IMG/VR virus record: IMGVR_UViG_3300020191_000083
Coordinates: 1 to 21,626 of that record
From: a virus
Direction: 5' to 3' (one strand)
Length of the DNA stretch: 21,626 nt
The position numbers were made by a program, and so were the translations under genes. This document shows positions 12,399 through 21,626 of this stretch, piece after piece (within the stretch, counting starts at the first letter, position 1; each line of letters begins with the position of its first letter). The notes under the pieces were generated by a model that made no database searches, was not told where the DNA came from, and saw only the letters and a list, made by a program, of their open reading frames with translations.

Positions 12399-12404
12399 AG
12401 TATT

Positions 12405-12433
12405 ATTATACAGGATATTAAGTGATTTGTCAA
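12405..12433 (-). promoter_or_regulatory. Consensus sigma70-type promoter, apparently leaderless
   Basis: On the minus strand TTGACA (12433-12428), a 17-base spacer and TATAAT (12410-12405) match the consensus exactly. Only six bases (AATACT) separate TATAAT from the primase ATG, so initiation seven bases downstream would fall on the A of the ATG. The promoter begins right after the stop of the preceding virion-protein gene. It should be read by host RNA polymerase early in infection. Confidence 0.85.
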
Positions 12434-14975: not shown

Positions 14976-15399
14976 GTGATAATGCTAATTCTTTGAGTTC
15001 TTCTTTTGTATTTAAATTTATAAGATGATTTATATCTTCTGTTTTCATATGAGGGAAAATTTCATATATAAAATCAAATATTTTATTTTTCTTTTTTCTT
15101 GCATTAGGTGGTTTAAGATACGGATGAAATTGTACCTTACCAACCCCACAGGTGCTCAGCAAGAGCCATTGTAATTCAGGGTGTTTACTTACTTCCATAA
15201 ACTGATAGTTAACCAGTTCATTAGTCATATAAATGTAATTCGCCGCTTCTTTTCCTTGTACACTACTACAATACCTCATCATCATCCAGGCACTAAAAGC
15301 CTTTTTCTGTTCATCACTTAAACGATTATAAAAACCTCTATCTTTTTTATCTATTGCCGCCATAATTTCTTTGAGCGGTATTTGAGGTTTTTTAGGCAT
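14932..15399 (-). CDS. Probable clamp-loader small subunit, gp62-like
   Basis: The 155-residue helical protein has the pattern I associate with the short gp62-type clamp-loader subunits of T4-like marine phages: an N-terminal helix with ID-K, then KKAFSAWMMMRYCSS, NELVNYQF and HPELQWLLL, then a Gly/His/Pro segment (GVGKVQFHPYLKPP) and a basic linker. Clamp loaders place the sliding clamp on primed DNA. No ATPase motif is present, as expected for the small subunit; the large ATPase (gp44) is not in this window. The start overlaps the apt stop as TAATG. The assignment rests on pattern memory and context, so it is only moderately supported. Confidence 0.5.
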   Translation of the reverse strand: MPKKPQIPLKEIMAAIDKKDRGFYNRLSDEQKKAFSAWMMMRYCSSVQGKEAANYIYMTNELVNYQFMEVSKHPELQWLLLSTCGVGKVQFHPYLKPPNARKKKNKIFDFIYEIFPHMKTEDINHLINLNTKEELKELALSHGYNDNTIKDIFGK

Positions 15400-15932
15400 T
15401 ATTCTCCTTCGTATTCAACAAGTGCGGCGGCATTATAGCCTTGCTCTATAATTTTAGCAAATCCTCCCAAGTCTGTCAAGTCTATAACAGCCAGTATTAA
15501 AATATTATCTCTGGGTACATCAAAACATTCATGTACTAAGTCAGCACATGCAATCGCAGTACCGCCAGTTGCTATTAAGTCATCTATTATTACAACTTTA
15601 TCTGTGGATTTAATATTTGTATTTTTTTGTATTTCCAAACTTGTACTTCCATATTCTAAGTCAAAATCTCTTTTGTGTGTTTCGTTGGGCAGTTTTCCAG
15701 GCTTACGAGCCATTACAAAAGGAATATTAAGATTATTGGCTATAGGTGCTCCAAAAACAAACCCCCTGCTTTCAATACCTACAATACAATTTGCTTGTAG
15801 AGATAAATCTTCCATTTCTTGTAATGTATATTTAAATGCATCAGGGTTTTCTATTAGACTTGTAATATCTCTAAATTGTATACCTGGGATAGGAAAATCA
15901 GGTACTGTTCTTATTGTGTCTTTTAAATTCAT
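15399..15932 (-). CDS. apt: Adenine phosphoribosyltransferase
   Basis: The 177-residue enzyme converts adenine and PRPP into AMP and pyrophosphate, a purine-salvage step. The family signature is clear: FPIPGIQFRDIT at the N-terminus, GIESRGFVFGAPIA, ARKPGKLP, and the PRPP-binding loop VVIIDDLIATGGTA near 112-125. Length matches the bacterial enzyme (E. coli, 183). It begins inside an ATGA overlap with a small unknown gene and ends in a TAATG overlap. In the same operon as metK it may recycle adenine released from SAM by-products during infection; that link is inference. Confidence 0.93.
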   Translation of the reverse strand: MNLKDTIRTVPDFPIPGIQFRDITSLIENPDAFKYTLQEMEDLSLQANCIVGIESRGFVFGAPIANNLNIPFVMARKPGKLPNETHKRDFDLEYGSTSLEIQKNTNIKSTDKVVIIDDLIATGGTAIACADLVHECFDVPRDNILILAVIDLTDLGGFAKIIEQGYNAAALVEYEGE

Positions 15933-16180
15933 ATTTCACTCATTTTTATATTTAATATTTCGTCCCATGTAGCAAATTGTTTTTTGCTATAAGGACCAGC
16001 CGGATATGTAGGTGGTGTCCATTCTATCACTACATTTCTAGTGTAAATAGACTTCATCCAAATCTTTTTACCCCCTAAGGTTGTTTTAGGTATCCAAGCA
16101 AATACTTTTTTCCATTCTGTATATTGTGGTTCCGTCTTTGTTTTTAAATCCGGGTACCTAGTATATGCAGGATGATTCAT
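15929..16180 (-). CDS. Small protein of unknown function between metK and apt
   Basis: The 83-residue product starts at ATG 16180 (MNHPAYTRYPD), which overlaps the metK stop as TAATG; a longer frame from 16204 would start inside metK. It is Trp-, Lys- and Pro-rich (WKKVFAWIPK, KIWMKSIYTRN, VIEWTPPTYPAGPY), apparently beta-rich, and lacks a membrane helix or recognisable motif. Its stop overlaps apt as ATGA. The tight coupling to both genes argues that it is translated. Function is unknown. Confidence 0.68.
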   Translation of the reverse strand: MNHPAYTRYPDLKTKTEPQYTEWKKVFAWIPKTTLGGKKIWMKSIYTRNVVIEWTPPTYPAGPYSKKQFATWDEILNIKMSEI

Positions 16181-17274
16181 TAAAAAATATCTACAACTTC
16201 CCACGGTAAATCTTGTTTACCAAAATGCCCATAATTAGTTGTTGTGGTTAAATCTAAATTAAATAAATTAAATTTATCAATTATACCTTTAGGTGTCAGG
16301 TCTATATTATCTCTAAAATAATCTGCAAATTCCTTTCTAACTTGTCCGTCAGCATAAACATATATATTTGTAGGTTCTTTTACACCAATAGCATAACTTA
16401 ATTGTACTGTGGCATTTTTAGCCTTGCCGCCTGCCACAATGTTTTTAGCCAAGTATCTAGCCATATAAGCCGCACTTCTATCCACTTTGGTACAGTCTTT
16501 ACCACTAAAGGCACCGCCGCCATGTGGTGCATATCCACCGTATGTGTCTACAATTATTTTTCTACCTGTTAATCCTGTGTCGCCATCTGGACCACCAATA
16601 ACAAATCTGCCTGTTGGATTGATTAACCATTCTGTGTTATCTATATCTATCTTTCCTTCTACTACAGGAAAAATTATAGCCTTTACACGTTCTCTAACCT
16701 CTTCTATAGATAATTTATCACTATGTTGCGTACTACATACGATAGTTTTAATATTGATAGGCGTACCTACTTTATCATAGTTAAGTGTAACCTGTGCTTT
16801 ACTATCTGGTCCTAACCAATCAGCACCGTTTTTTCTTTCGTGTTCTAATTGTTTTAATATCTCATGGCTGTAATAAATTGCACTTGGCATATAATTAGGC
16901 GTTTCGTCACAGGCATAACCAAACATCAGTCCTTGATCTCCTGCACCAAAGTCATCTGTACCTAAGGCAATGTCCGGAGATTGACCATGCAATTCATTGT
17001 AGACTTTTAATTTATCCCAATGAAAACCATCTTGCTCGTAGCCAATATCTCTTACAGTTGCTCTAACAAGTTTTTCAATATAAACTTTATCAAATTTATC
17101 ACTTTTGTATTCACCAGCAAGTGTAACCATATTGGTTGTCACTAAAGTTTCTACAGCCGCTCTATGGCTAATATTTTTATCTATTAAGTAAGTTGCTACA
17201 GCATCAGAAATTCTATCTGCTACTTTATCTGGATGTCCACTACTTACACTTTCACTTGTGAATTCATAACTCAT
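16180..17274 (-). CDS. metK: S-adenosylmethionine synthetase
   Basis: The 364-residue enzyme makes SAM from methionine and ATP. Hallmarks are in place: FTSESVSSGHPDK with His14, GAGDQGLMFGYA, INPTGRFVIGGPDGDTGLTG, and the phosphate-binding GGGAFSGKD followed by KVDRSAAY. Compared with E. coli MetK (384 residues) it lacks about 15 C-terminal residues, ending shortly after YGHFGKQDLPWE. The active site looks intact. It starts one base after the upstream gene. A phage metK could raise SAM for DNA or RNA methylation during replication, though no methyltransferase lies in this window. Confidence 0.95.
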   Translation of the reverse strand: MSYEFTSESVSSGHPDKVADRISDAVATYLIDKNISHRAAVETLVTTNMVTLAGEYKSDKFDKVYIEKLVRATVRDIGYEQDGFHWDKLKVYNELHGQSPDIALGTDDFGAGDQGLMFGYACDETPNYMPSAIYYSHEILKQLEHERKNGADWLGPDSKAQVTLNYDKVGTPINIKTIVCSTQHSDKLSIEEVRERVKAIIFPVVEGKIDIDNTEWLINPTGRFVIGGPDGDTGLTGRKIIVDTYGGYAPHGGGAFSGKDCTKVDRSAAYMARYLAKNIVAGGKAKNATVQLSYAIGVKEPTNIYVYADGQVRKEFADYFRDNIDLTPKGIIDKFNLFNLDLTTTTNYGHFGKQDLPWEVVDIF

Positions 17275-18075
17275 TTATAATTTTCCTTCTTTTTTCATTT
17301 GTTCTCTGATTTTAGTTGCACTGATTTTTTGTGTTTCTTCATCAAGAACTTCTTCTTCTATTTTATATCCTACACCTCTACCATATGTGATATTCATTAT
17401 GTTTGGTACAGGATAACACCTAAATTTACCTGCAAATTCTGCCAGTTCCTGCTCTATATTATCACAGATATCGTCTACTGTCCAAGGATTGCTATCATCT
17501 CTTGGCATATCTCTTACAAGAACAGCAACCTGGCCATGTTTTGCTAATGCTCTTTCAAACAACTTTTGATGACCTTCATGCCATGGTTGAAATCTTCCTA
17601 GCATCTGTGTGGTTGGTTGCTTTGGTTGAAATAGATTATCTTTTATGTCAACTGCAATAAGCCTAGCCCATTTTTCTATTGTTTCTTCAGTCCACCAATC
17701 TTCTTCGTTAATTTGTATATCAACATTTACAGTATCATCTGGTCTTTCAAATACTTTGTTAGTATCTTCATATCGGCCTTTAGATATAGTGTTCATCCAA
17801 ATTACATATTCAGGTTGAAACTTTCTTCTTAATTCATTAGTAGGACAAACAAAATCTGCAATAGCATAATTACCATTGCCTACTGTTTTTAAACAATAGT
17901 CGTTCATCCTTTTCATTTGTCTTTCTCTGCCTTCTGGAGAGAAATCCCAATCATTAAAAAGTTCTCTTATTTCATCTGCATTATGCCATTTGGCATTTCC
18001 TAATACTTCTACTAGGCGTTCTGCTAACGTTGATTTTCCTGAGCCTGGTAGGCCACAGATTAGTATTCTTTTCAT
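17275..18075 (-). CDS. APS-kinase-like P-loop kinase fused to an NMN-adenylyltransferase-like domain
   Basis: The 266-residue protein has two domains. Residues 1-145 form a P-loop kinase: Walker A GLPGSGKS at 8-15, NADEIR at 32-37, DWDFSPEGR at 42-50 and ADFVCP at 73-78. These track the adenylylsulfate kinase pattern (DGDNxR, GFS..R, ASFISP). Residues 155-266 form a nucleotidylyltransferase with GRFQPWHEGH at 160-169 and ISATKIR at 251-257, as in NadM/NadR-type adenylyltransferases. The order recalls NadR or PAPS synthetase fusions, but the kinase is APS-kinase-like. The substrate could be a nucleotide, a nicotinamide compound or a sugar phosphate. AGGAG precedes the ATG. Confidence 0.8.
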   Translation of the reverse strand: MKRILICGLPGSGKSTLAERLVEVLGNAKWHNADEIRELFNDWDFSPEGRERQMKRMNDYCLKTVGNGNYAIADFVCPTNELRRKFQPEYVIWMNTISKGRYEDTNKVFERPDDTVNVDIQINEEDWWTEETIEKWARLIAVDIKDNLFQPKQPTTQMLGRFQPWHEGHQKLFERALAKHGQVAVLVRDMPRDDSNPWTVDDICDNIEQELAEFAGKFRCYPVPNIMNITYGRGVGYKIEEEVLDEETQKISATKIREQMKKEGKL

Positions 18076-18090
18076 TTAACTCCTAAAAGT

Positions 18091-18873
18091 TTATCTATTT
18101 TCCCTTTCCCATTCTGCGTTTTCTTCAAACTCTGCAAGATATTCATCTAAGTTTTCTTGTATGTTTTCCTGAGTATCATGCCACTTAGTATTTAACCAGC
18201 CAACCTGTGCATCATAACTTTTACCGGTTGAATCCATGTAATCATAATCACAATCTAATTCTACTTTATCGTAAAATACAGCATCAATAAATTCGCCTAA
18301 ATTTGTTTCAACAACACCCATTCCAAGTTTAAACTCATCAAAATCTTCGCCGTCTGTTTCCACAAACCAAGCACCAAAAGAACCTTTTTCGCAACTATGA
18401 AACATTAATACAGGTACATGTTTGTTGCCGTCTTCATCCTCTTCGTTAATTACTTCTGGTTCTTCATCAGTATTAAAGTATCCGCCTTCTCTTCCATATA
18501 CATGGATTGCTTCGCCTTCATATACTTCTTTATCATAGTCCCAATCATCTGATCCATCTGCTGGAACTTCATATACATAAAAGCCACCGTCAGCATAGGC
18601 ACTATTAATGTGTTCAAACTCATCATTTTCCCACATATTAAAGTATTCGTCTTCATCTGTAGCAGGACCTGGAGGAGTATCTGGATCTATTAACGAGTCA
18701 TCTGGTTCCTCATCATCTCCATATCCCATTTGATCTGATTCCAATACAGCATCTATAAGTTCACTGGTATCGTCTAAATCTGCATAATATCTTGCAAATG
18801 CTGGATTTACTGAACCGAAAACTAGTTCGCCTCCATATCTGCCGCCTTCTATTCTAAATTTTCTTTTTGCCAT
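18091..18873 (-). CDS. Highly acidic protein of unknown function, possible nucleic-acid mimic
   Basis: The 260-residue protein holds about 73 Asp/Glu against about 16 Lys/Arg, a net charge near -57, with acidic runs such as YGDDEEPDDSLIDPD and INEEDEDGN. The first 12 residues are basic (MAKRKFRIEGGR). Aromatic residues are frequent and spread between acidic ones, and the central region has beta-like segments, so it is probably folded. No known domain is recognised. It has the best Shine-Dalgarno in the early operon (AGGAGG, seven bases before ATG), suggesting strong translation. Such proteins can mimic DNA and block host nucleases or nucleoid proteins, but a chaperone or metal-binding role is possible. 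Confidence 0.75.
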   Translation of the reverse strand: MAKRKFRIEGGRYGGELVFGSVNPAFARYYADLDDTSELIDAVLESDQMGYGDDEEPDDSLIDPDTPPGPATDEDEYFNMWENDEFEHINSAYADGGFYVYEVPADGSDDWDYDKEVYEGEAIHVYGREGGYFNTDEEPEVINEEDEDGNKHVPVLMFHSCEKGSFGAWFVETDGEDFDEFKLGMGVVETNLGEFIDAVFYDKVELDCDYDYMDSTGKSYDAQVGWLNTKWHDTQENIQENLDEYLAEFEENAEWERENR

Positions 18874-18882
18874 AATAACCTC

Positions 18883-19380
18883 CTATAGTAAATCAGCAAT
18901 CTGAATATCTTTTATTTTTTTATACTCTTTAACAAAAAGAGCACATTTGGGTTCTGGACCATCTTCTAATGGTACTGCCAACATGTGACCGTTTTTTAGT
19001 TTTGGAAAATACCATTTTACATCCTGGTACACGTTGGTAATCTGTATTTCTTCTGATCTTGGCATCCAACTGTGCATTGGATTAAGAACAGGACTTAAAA
19101 ATCCTCTATTGTTTAAACTTGCTAATGGTACAATCTCTAAATCAGCGAACTCCTCATCACAAGTTAATATACTCCAGTCCATAGGCATCTGTATTTTGTA
19201 AGGTCCTATTTCTAAACATATTGCTGGAGCATGAAAACTTTCTAAAAATATTAAAGGTAGCCAGTAATAATCTTGATATTCAGGGTCACCACCGTCAAAA
19301 ACACAATATCTTATATCTTCTATTTCATCAGGTACGCAATCTATATCGTATGATTTATTATCTATTGTTAAAATTTTCAT
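18883..19380 (-). CDS. Conserved-looking protein of unknown function next to uvsW
   Basis: The 165-residue protein is mixed alpha/beta with many Pro, Trp and aromatic residues (YYWLPLIFLESFHAPAICLEI, KIQMPMDWSILTCDEEFADL, MHSWMPRSEEIQ). It ends GPEPKCALFVKEYKKIKDIQIADLL. There is no signal peptide, membrane helix, P-loop or metal-binding motif I can name. ATG 19380 overlaps the uvsW stop by ATGA, and the stop lies ten bases before the acidic-protein gene. The coupling with uvsW suggests a role in replication, recombination or gene regulation, but nothing in the sequence specifies it. Confidence 0.7.
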   Translation of the reverse strand: MKILTIDNKSYDIDCVPDEIEDIRYCVFDGGDPEYQDYYWLPLIFLESFHAPAICLEIGPYKIQMPMDWSILTCDEEFADLEIVPLASLNNRGFLSPVLNPMHSWMPRSEEIQITNVYQDVKWYFPKLKNGHMLAVPLEDGPEPKCALFVKEYKKIKDIQIADLL

Positions 19381-20834
19381 TTATATTCCACCTTAGTTAT
19401 TGAATGTCTAAAATTCTGCTCTCTGTAAAAGGCTTTCCTTTTAGTCAAGTGTCTTTTACTATACTTTAAATTACTTGTTATGTCAACTATATTAACATAA
19501 TCTTTATCTTCTGCTTTACGAATACCTCTTCCAATACTTTGAATTACCCTAACAAAACTTTTGCCTGGTTCCAATAATATTAGATTAAATATCCTTGGTA
19601 TGTTAATACCAACTGCCGCTACACCATAAGTAGCAACGATCACTTTATTATTCATGTCACTTATTTCATTATAATTATCTTGCCTGTCTTCTGTTTTCAT
19701 TGAGCCTCTAACAAAAGCCCAATCAGGATTTCTTTCTGCTAACATTTCACCTGTTTTAATCCTATCTATTAATACCAGTGTATTTCCGTTTTCAGCAAAA
19801 CCATTTATAATTTCAGATAAATGATCTATTCTTTTAGGGTCTGTGACTAACCATTTAAGTTCTTGTGCATAACTTCCAAATTGTATTGCACCATCTTGTA
19901 ATTGTAAAATACTGATATCCAAGTCTGCCAGAACACCCATATCTTGTAATTCTTTACTGCTCATTTTTCCTATCACAGGACCTAAACTACAGGTACAACC
20001 TACTGCTTCATGTTCATCTTTAGGTATTGTTCCTGTGAGTCCCCATCTAATAGGAACTTCTCTAAAAGGACCACTCAATAAATTCTTTAAAACGTCTGCT
20101 TTTGCTTTATGAACTTCGTCAACCATTACACAAACAACATTATCTAAAAATTCATCAATTGGAAAGTCTGCTTCAAAACTTTTGCTTTTCTTTTCCATTA
20201 TACTAAGACTTTGCCATGTACAAATAGTATGTGTTTTATCGTATTCTTTTCTATCCCCAAACAGAACACCCACATCAAGTCCTAAATTTATATAGTCTTT
20301 TTCGGTTTGTACTACTAAATCTTTATTAGGGACAATCACTATGGTTCTTCCATAAGGTTCACATTTATGACTTAGTACCGCAGTTATAAGTGTTTTACCA
20401 GCACCTGTGGCAATCTCTTGTAATGATTGTGTATTATCTAAAAATCTGTTTATAATATCTACCTGATAATCTCTAAGTATTACAGGTTGTCCCTCTGCTG
20501 GATGCCGTTTAGGCCATTTAACATGTTGATAACTATTTTGATTAACTTGGTCAAACTCAAATTTCCAAGACTTACGCATATCCTTTATTTCGATTTCGTA
20601 CCCATCATCAGTAACAATAGGTACTAATTTATCTAATAAATGAAAATATGTTCTTCCACCAATGTCACAATATCTCACACAACCATCCCAACGACCTAAT
20701 TTATATGCCGGCATATGATATGCGTAGGGTAAAAAATATTTACAAGCATCAGATATTTTACGTCTTGTTTTCACATCAAGACCAGTAAATCTTACATTCA
20801 CTTCATCTCTGATTTCTAAAACACATTTACCCAT
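19377..20834 (-). CDS. uvsW: SF2 DNA/RNA helicase, UvsW-like
   Basis: The 485-residue protein is a superfamily 2 helicase of the T4 UvsW type, which unwinds branched DNA and R-loops and helps shift replication from origin- to recombination-dependent initiation. Motif I is ATGAGKT at 142-148, motif II is VDEVHKA at 238-244, motif III is LTGTIPKDE, and motif VI is QSIGRGIRKAED. A short N-terminal region (1-110, with WPKRHPAEG before the Q-like segment) matches the UvsW layout, and length is near T4 UvsW (about 500). The ATG follows a consensus promoter by five bases, so the mRNA probably lacks a leader. It heads the operon running down to 13690. Confidence 0.92.
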   Translation of the reverse strand: MGKCVLEIRDEVNVRFTGLDVKTRRKISDACKYFLPYAYHMPAYKLGRWDGCVRYCDIGGRTYFHLLDKLVPIVTDDGYEIEIKDMRKSWKFEFDQVNQNSYQHVKWPKRHPAEGQPVILRDYQVDIINRFLDNTQSLQEIATGAGKTLITAVLSHKCEPYGRTIVIVPNKDLVVQTEKDYINLGLDVGVLFGDRKEYDKTHTICTWQSLSIMEKKSKSFEADFPIDEFLDNVVCVMVDEVHKAKADVLKNLLSGPFREVPIRWGLTGTIPKDEHEAVGCTCSLGPVIGKMSSKELQDMGVLADLDISILQLQDGAIQFGSYAQELKWLVTDPKRIDHLSEIINGFAENGNTLVLIDRIKTGEMLAERNPDWAFVRGSMKTEDRQDNYNEISDMNNKVIVATYGVAAVGINIPRIFNLILLEPGKSFVRVIQSIGRGIRKAEDKDYVNIVDITSNLKYSKRHLTKRKAFYREQNFRHSITKVEYK

Positions 20835-20839
20835 AATCT

Positions 20840-20869
20840 ATTATACTACCACTTATACCCTAATGTCAA
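20840..20869 (-). promoter_or_regulatory. Consensus sigma70-type promoter, apparently leaderless
   Basis: The minus strand reads TTGACA (20869-20864), an 18-base spacer, and TATAAT (20845-20840), then AGATT and the uvsW ATG. The minus-35 lies within the last codons of the TonB-receptor-like gene, and its TAG stop falls in the spacer, next to the minus-10. A start seven bases after TATAAT would fall within one or two bases of the start codon. Confidence 0.83.
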
Positions 20870-21626
20870 GTAATACTCAGTACCTTTTGTATTATAAAAA
20901 GGAACTACTTCTACTACTTCGTCTGTAATGTTTTCTGCTTTAAAGGAAACTGTTAAACCATTTGTAAACTCTTTGGTTACATACAAGTTTAACTTATTTA
21001 GATCTTCCAAATACTCCTGGCCTTCTTCTAATACATCATAAGGTCCAGGTGCTCTATCTAAATTAAAAGCATATTTTAATCTAAAGTTCACATCAAAAAA
21101 GTTTTCGCTGTATTGTAATACACCAGAAAATTTAGGTACTCTGGTTTGATCTGTATCTGTATATTTTAACATTACAAAAAGGGGACCAAAGTTATTTGCA
21201 TATCTCATACCTGCTGTGGTATATTCTCCTGTGTTGGCATAAGTAGGCATAGTATAAACTGGATTATTGTCTTCTACTAATGTGTAAACACAACCTAATG
21301 GCATACCATCTGATGCTGTATAATTAGGATCTAATACACAACCACCATATGTGCCGTCTGTATTTACAGATAGATCAGGATTTAGTTCCAATGTTGCTGT
21401 AATATTATCTGTATAATATCCTGGAACATATTCTATTGCTTCTTCAAAATCATACATGAATACACTTAATACACCATATCCCAATTCAACACCTACACCT
21501 TTTTCAGGATCTAGTTCTTCATTGCCTTGTACATATCCATCACCAAACTTTTCATATAAGTTCGCTTTTCTAAAACTGTTACCAATGTTAAAAAAGAAGT
21601 CTCCTTTTTCTATACCCAGTCTAAGA
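20846..21626 (-). CDS. TonB-dependent receptor-like outer-membrane protein, C-terminal part
   Basis: The frame is open from the right edge to TAG at 20846, giving about 259 C-terminal residues; the N-terminus lies outside. It shows late-barrel landmarks of TonB-dependent receptors: NSFRKANLYEKFGDG, then GNEELDPEKGVGVELGYG, the usual GN-x-L-x-PE...E-x-G box. Alternating strands with periplasmic-turn and loop spacing follow, then FKAENITDE and a last strand EYYLTLGYKW ending in an aromatic residue as BAM substrates do. A loop cysteine pair (GGCVLDP, GCVYTL) may form a disulphide. Such receptors import iron chelates, B12 or glycans. Plug domain, signal peptide and TonB box are not visible here. 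It lies directly before uvsW, whose promoter overlaps its end. Confidence 0.75.
   Translation of the reverse strand, partial: LRLGIEKGDFFFNIGNSFRKANLYEKFGDGYVQGNEELDPEKGVGVELGYGVLSVFMYDFEEAIEYVPGYYTDNITATLELNPDLSVNTDGTYGGCVLDPNYTASDGMPLGCVYTLVEDNNPVYTMPTYANTGEYTTAGMRYANNFGPLFVMLKYTDTDQTRVPKFSGVLQYSENFFDVNFRLKYAFNLDRAPGPYDVLEEGQEYLEDLNKLNLYVTKEFTNGLTVSFKAENITDEVVEVVPFYNTKGTEYYLTLGYKW

Follow-up and report, generated by a model that had tools for sequence, protein, structure and literature searches.

What role is played by the exceptionally acidic 260-residue protein encoded at positions 18,091 to 18,873 of a 21,626-nucleotide stretch of viral DNA, which makes up an entire virus contig record and is referred to here as the window? 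A sequence-only reading had described it as a strongly expressed early protein and a candidate DNA mimic, possibly with an anti-defence function. The features on which the present analysis was based are as follows.

17275 to 18075, minus strand: kinase/nucleotidyltransferase gene, next after the acidic gene (family match and conserved order)
18091 to 18873, minus strand: acidic-protein gene, 260 aa, net charge -57 (homologues and AlphaFold2 model)
18879 to 18884, minus strand: Shine-Dalgarno sequence (AGGAGG) for the acidic gene; it overlaps the preceding gene's stop codon
18883 to 19380, minus strand: g165, phrog_11279 (annotated as unknown function), E 1.8e-45, always adjoining uvsW
19377 to 20834, minus strand: UvsW-type DNA helicase, first gene of the unit (family match)
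20840 to 20869, minus strand: perfect sigma70 promoter TTGACA-N18-TATAAT before uvsW, its -10 element ending 5 nt before the ATG

The acidic gene starts with an ATG at 18873 on the minus strand, and the plus-strand frame of 18091-18873 is riddled with stop codons. The protein contains 35 D and 38 E (73 acidic residues) against 9 K and 7 R (16 basic residues), which reproduces the net charge near -57 reported earlier and corresponds to -21.9 per 100 residues; the runner-up among the 26 minus-strand window ORFs listed reaches -8.5 per 100. The abundance of aromatic residues noted in the sequence-only reading was also recovered (38 F, Y, or W, 14.6%), and its description of the ribosome-binding site as the strongest of the operon holds: AGGAGG lies 5 bases before the ATG, compared with AAGGTGG for the upstream gene and AGGAG for the downstream one, uvsW having no clear site.

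Placement of the gene in an early operon is supported by the perfect sigma70 promoter just before uvsW. Two perfect sites were observed on the minus strand of the window, against 0.025 expected from Markov shuffles, and the regions upstream of uvsW in relatives carried a perfect site in 28 of 40 distinct cases, the other 12 including several with a doubtful automatic start call. At both window sites (20840-20869 and 12404-12433, minus strand) the -10 element ends 5-7 nt before the ATG and there is no Shine-Dalgarno sequence. Among 172 distinct perfect sites with an ORF starting no more than 80 nt away, 41 were of this close-spaced kind, those of uvsW and primase included. Most of this count was contributed by uvsW orthologues; the arrangement suggests leaderless early messages.

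The window is part of the genome of a large marine T4-like phage. This assignment follows from its gene content (UvsW, primase, DnaB-type helicase, and S-adenosylmethionine synthetase, the primase and DnaB-type helicase being named by their translations and by a gene order that agrees with the annotated region of Paride) and from the jumbo-phage kinship of g165, whose best named relatives are found, at 61% identity, in Pseudomonas phages of the PA5oct/Paride type, followed by Phosso, Atu_ph07, Munch, CBB, and GAP32. In Paride, the genes uvsW, g165, g155, a zinc-finger-like gene, and phrog_11778 are ordered as in the window, but the acidic gene is absent, at uvsW and elsewhere, as are the metabolic genes found in the window. 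The latter form an insert at 15399-18075 (minus strand) between g165 and g155, with APRT-like, S-adenosylmethionine synthetase, and kinase/nucleotidyltransferase genes. No acidic homologue was present in the stretches examined around g165 relatives in other jumbo phages (20 loci and four named records).

Relatives of the acidic protein were retrieved from IMG/VR, 36 with the single protein as query and 79 with an alignment; broader alignments counted 134 and 131 relatives, the best 80 of each being listed. The 79 viral contigs, designated clade 1, encode relatives 50-100% identical to the window protein, linked to uvsW wherever the contig extends far enough. The g165 gene precedes the acidic gene in 73 of the 79 loci, and the remaining six contigs begin inside the acidic gene or less than 400 nt before it; in some loci at least one small gene is inserted between the two, leaving gaps of 101 to 878 nt. 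With relatives on 79 contigs and in the wider family described below, a reading of the gene as an orphan was dropped.

Other genes near uvsW were recorded in passing. The end of the window cuts a gene for a TonB-dependent receptor-like protein, of which the C-terminal part is encoded at 20846-21484 (minus strand). Full-length relatives precede uvsW in much of clade 1, as in L002:52-2022 (about 657 aa; Plug domain, E 6.3e-10), and the copy upstream of uvsW in the 250-kb contig G001 begins like a signal peptide and is preceded by a separate sigma70 site. A literature search on phage-encoded TonB-dependent receptor-like proteins found no paper. Contig G001 also carries three adjacent genes, at 87139, 89576, and 90711, with lipoprotein- or signal-peptide-like starts, which are possibly a secreted or surface system.

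A second group, clade 2, was found by a DNA search for one conserved octapeptide, which returned 53 stretches. Of these, 27 encode a longer version of the protein (310-326 aa where complete) with a C-terminal extension, a net charge of about -55 to -62, and, across the 12 loci that were compared, 43-48% identity with the window protein. Here the gene order, established from PHROG and Pfam matches, is portal, prohead protease, gp22-like, gp23, acidic gene. No UvsW relative was found on any of seven clade-2 contigs searched, one of which extends about 70 kb beyond the acidic gene. In locus L208, gp23 is followed by a terminator-like hairpin with a T-run, then by TTGACA-N17-TATAAT, and then by the acidic gene, which is therefore not simply a member of the capsid unit. 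Among distinct clade-2 upstream regions, 12 of 14 had a perfect sigma70 site and the other two a site at 11/12, located 53-63 nt before the start, and a 128-kb clade-2 contig has three perfect sites in all, one of them at the acidic gene. The acidic gene thus appears, judging from these motifs, to be under sigma70-type, early-looking control at two unrelated genomic positions, in clades 1 and 2 only. Since the full AGGAGG was found in 24 of 53 clade-1 members and in none of 16 clade-2 members, it is not general among relatives; shorter forms were more frequent in clade 1 (GGAGG in 31/53, GGAG in 51/53), and clade 2 had GGAG in 16/16 and GGAGG in 0/16.

Several metagenome samples gave both clade-1 and clade-2 copies, and one phage may carry both on contigs that were never joined. 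The family was single-copy in each of the ten contigs searched with a profile, and G001, which includes both the uvsW region and the gp23 region, has one acidic gene only, about 54 kb away from gp23. Two further observations concern the clade-2 neighbourhood. A 237-aa gene lies right behind the acidic gene in L208 (7543-8253), is also present in L237 and L213, and had no match in Pfam or PHROG. Still more acidic proteins are encoded in contig G005 at 81406 (-67 in 277 aa) and in G001 at 108023 (-93 in 268 aa); their L208 equivalent is located between portal and prohead protease, and they are probably scaffold proteins.

To this was added a wider set, obtained with a two-gap pattern search on EKG.F, FD..K, and YDG, which matched at least 120 contigs, 80 of them among the matches listed; fewer than one chance match was expected by a rough hand estimate. 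The pattern was drawn from clade-2 sequences and from a prior expectation of a wider family with such motifs, this expectation not being counted as evidence. The proteins are 190-420 aa long and have in common motifs outside the search pattern, namely an N-terminal G.GGE, W-(Y/H)-E-x-D-D-x-x-H, and T-x-G-K. Comparison of the profile of clades 1 and 2 with the wider set using hhalign gave a probability of 99.1 (E 1.4e-18, 187 columns), and a profile of 29 wider members, which contained neither of the two genes, detected the G005 clade-2 gene with E 5.2e-21 and the G001 clade-1 gene with E 1.4e-13. On this profile similarity, clades 1 and 2 and the wider set are assigned to one family, named GGE/EKG here after its conserved motifs. 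Some wider members (such as L341, L354, L387, and L394) have C-terminal additions, either a zinc-ribbon-like stretch with four cysteines or a module that has W-(R/Q)-G at its end and in L394 matches phrog_26541 (E 1.3e-6).

Acidity runs through the family. In clades 1 and 2, each of 80 distinct full-length proteins has a net charge of -46 to -63. The 67 wider-family proteins that are at least 150 aa long and have no open ends are negative without exception, with a net charge of -27 to -63 and a density of -7.0 to -22.4 per 100 residues. Ranked by acidity among the ORFs of its locus, the wider-family protein comes first in 56 and second in four of the 60 loci that have enough neighbours for the comparison. 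Because of the uniform charge in clades 1 and 2 and this rank, the acidity is not attributed to chance; an extreme charge is not obligatory, since values as mild as -7 per 100 residues occur in the wider set. No constant neighbour was found in the wider-family loci. Of ten large wider-family contigs, three have a gp23 that is 78-80% identical to that of clade 2, with the family gene 60 to 95 kb from it; the other seven may be fragments. Promoters at 11/12 or better were directly upstream of 7 of 63 wider-family genes, compared with 105 of 861 background ORFs. With no enrichment over this background, early-type control is supported for clades 1 and 2 only, and promoter enrichment as a family-wide trait was dropped.

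Searches for a named relative were performed against several collections, and the absences reported mark the limits of the searches used and are not proof of absence. With 49 members of clades 1 and 2, nothing convincing was obtained from Pfam, PHROGs, NCBIfam, or PADLOC, the PADLOC defence and anti-defence HMMs giving 0 families; weak Pfam and PHROG matches (best PHROG E 0.003) were scattered across unrelated families and were rejected. Nine wider members had no match in Pfam or PHROGs except for the C-terminal module in one. A tblastn comparison of seven different members with 50,697 phage records produced no credible match (chance matches at E 0.3 or above), a profile search of the whole records of ten named phages produced none, 72,556 plasmid records yielded only one chance match (E 4), and bacterial and archaeal genome contigs contained no relative. 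In the databases searched, the GGE/EKG family therefore appears to be restricted to phages, and no cultured representative was found. The portions of the literature available on this family or on DNA mimics in jumbo phages contained nothing naming it. No homologue of known role, related or unrelated to mimicry, was found.

Structure prediction was performed using AlphaFold2. A usable model of the acidic protein needed an alignment of 69 diverse sequences (pLDDT 88.3, pTM 0.84), the alignment of 22 close homologues giving a pLDDT of 49.7. The protein is predicted to be folded rather than disordered throughout, with pLDDT below 50 at residues 51-57 only. Beta structure predominates in the model, which also has helices at 24-31 and 36-48 and a C-terminal helix at 235-259. 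Against viral models (BFVD), Foldseek returned five matches (A0A6J5T6J3, A0A6J5T0V2, A0A6J5LUA2, A0A6J5LGW5, and A0A218MMX5) with E 1.2e-11 to 2.8e-10, probability 1.00, and 239-265 aligned columns. These uncharacterised proteins of uncultured Caudovirales or uncultured virus are 15-20% identical to the acidic protein; judging from the models, they very likely share its fold family, and we infer that they belong to the wider set. When solved structures were searched, Foldseek gave no E value better than 0.99, and VIA-align gave a Z of 2 or more for 0 of 640 chains; the profile search of PDB sequences had a best E of 0.1, to an unrelated entry. The lack of similarity to known DNA mimics claimed in the sequence-only reading was therefore borne out. 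At the level of the predicted model, the missing structural match is no proof of a new fold but rules out any plain resemblance to DNA mimics of solved structure.

The distribution of charge was examined on the 69-sequence alignment. Of the window protein's 57 net negative charges, 30 lie in segments 46-79, 123-150, and 234-260, which are variable, with a mean frequency of the commonest residue of 0.51-0.64; the mean charge is -9.5 in segment 46-79 and -7.9 in segment 234-260. Charge is kept where sequence varies, which is the pattern expected of a charged surface. The best-conserved stretches, 151-173 (0.82) and 219-233 (0.81), have net charges of 0 and -1 in the window protein, and this conserved near-neutral core looks like a specific fold or contact. 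An argument for direct selection on total charge from low variance was dropped, as the standard deviation of net charge (3.80) was within the range of column shuffles (mean 4.19, range 3.03-5.64).

The reading that we prefer, tentatively and at somewhat less than an even chance, is that the protein is soluble, attaches to a host protein with the help of its acidic loops and helix, and serves host takeover or counter-defence. It would be made early by the host RNA polymerase and would act in the infected cell by stoichiometric binding. The fold and one specific contact would come from the conserved neutral-to-aromatic core, and a basic host protein that binds nucleic acids would be drawn in by the acidic loops and the C-terminal helix. 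In favour of this reading are the single-copy, phage-only distribution, the early-type promoters in two contexts, the conserved acidity, the confidently predicted fold, and the lack of any matching enzyme or structural family in the libraries searched. The varying neighbours and varying distances from gp23 are as expected of an independent early gene. Counting against it are the lack of a fold precedent among solved structures, the promoters of the wider family at background level, the mild charge of some wider members, and a variance of net charge no lower than in column shuffles. The tie of the clade-1 gene to replication genes also counts against this reading and suits an accessory replication or recombination factor acting with UvsW and g165, both the acidic gene and g165 being in the uvsW unit in the order seen in 73 of the 79 clade-1 loci. 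Such a factor is nevertheless unlikely: clade 2 is located behind gp23, with no UvsW relative found on the seven clade-2 contigs searched, the wider family has no constant neighbour, and Paride and Phosso retain uvsW-g165 without the acidic gene. The clade-2 order, running from portal to gp23, would fit a head-assembly or virion protein, as would the nearby scaffold-region protein of -67 in 277 aa, since T4-like scaffold proteins are acidic. We regard this as very improbable in view of the hairpin after gp23, the consensus sigma70 promoter before the clade-2 gene, and the distances from gp23 of about 54 kb in G001 and 60-95 kb in three wider contigs; assignment as a T4-like head protein was rejected, with no credible Pfam or PHROG match and proximity to gp23 in clade 2 only.

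A true DNA mimic, whose acidic surface would copy the phosphate pattern of B-DNA and block a DNA-binding host protein (putatively a restriction enzyme, a RecBCD-like nuclease, a nucleoid protein, or RNA polymerase), is a rather doubtful alternative to host-protein binding of the kind preferred above, of which it would be the most daring version. The early-type promoters, the charge retained in the variable segments, and a charge density close to that of Ocr argue for it, and Ocr, in the available text of PMC7064336, illustrates that such a protein can strike several targets; the model resembles no solved structure, however, the best-conserved stretches are near neutral, and some wider members are only mildly acidic. 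Of the original proposal, the description of a folded, acidic, early protein with no known relative stood, whereas mimicry as stated was left unsupported by any likeness to a solved structure and by the neutral core. Conservation of a different kind, namely the invariant residues H88, W81, R128, K163, K218, and W231 and the conserved D-rich loops around 207-218, would suit a ligand- or metal-binding protein or an unrecognised enzyme in which acidic D/G/N-rich loops would bind divalent cations. That reading is distinctly unlikely, as several members have a shorter version of the most D-rich loop (about 140-150) or lack it, and no enzyme or structural family was matched in the family libraries searched, nor any solved fold.

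Acidic early phage proteins are a proven source of new inhibitors, whose targets include restriction, recombination nucleases, nucleoid proteins, and RNA polymerase. The GGE/EKG family is found on at least 80 environmental phage contigs, is missing from all four family libraries searched, and has a confidently predicted fold without a match in solved structures. It is conceivable, if on balance improbable, that it represents widespread early nucleic-acid-mimicking inhibitors with a fold absent from solved structures, used for counter-defence or takeover by large uncultured T4-like phages. If so, this class of inhibitors would have escaped notice because the family is carried by none of the cultured phages examined. 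Should the acidic protein be an inhibitor, it would offer a testable handle on host takeover by large marine and freshwater T4-like phages, whose hosts are hard to grow.

Among known DNA mimics, Ocr is the product of an early gene. According to the available text of PMC4872106, Ocr (T7 gp0.3) has 34 acidic and 6 basic residues in 116 and forms an elongated, DNA-shaped dimer. From this published composition, its charge density is -24 per 100 residues, similar to the -21.9 of the acidic protein, and Ocr is less than half as long; the dimer has the shape of DNA, whereas the model of the acidic protein is mostly beta, with no structural match between them. Arn of phage T4, Gam of phage lambda, and UGI are small viral inhibitors called DNA mimics in the available text of PMC7064336; they showed no sequence or fold similarity to the acidic protein in database-wide searches, as distinct from one-by-one comparison. 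The traits of the DNA-mimic class that the acidic protein displays are its strong negative charge and its predicted folded state.
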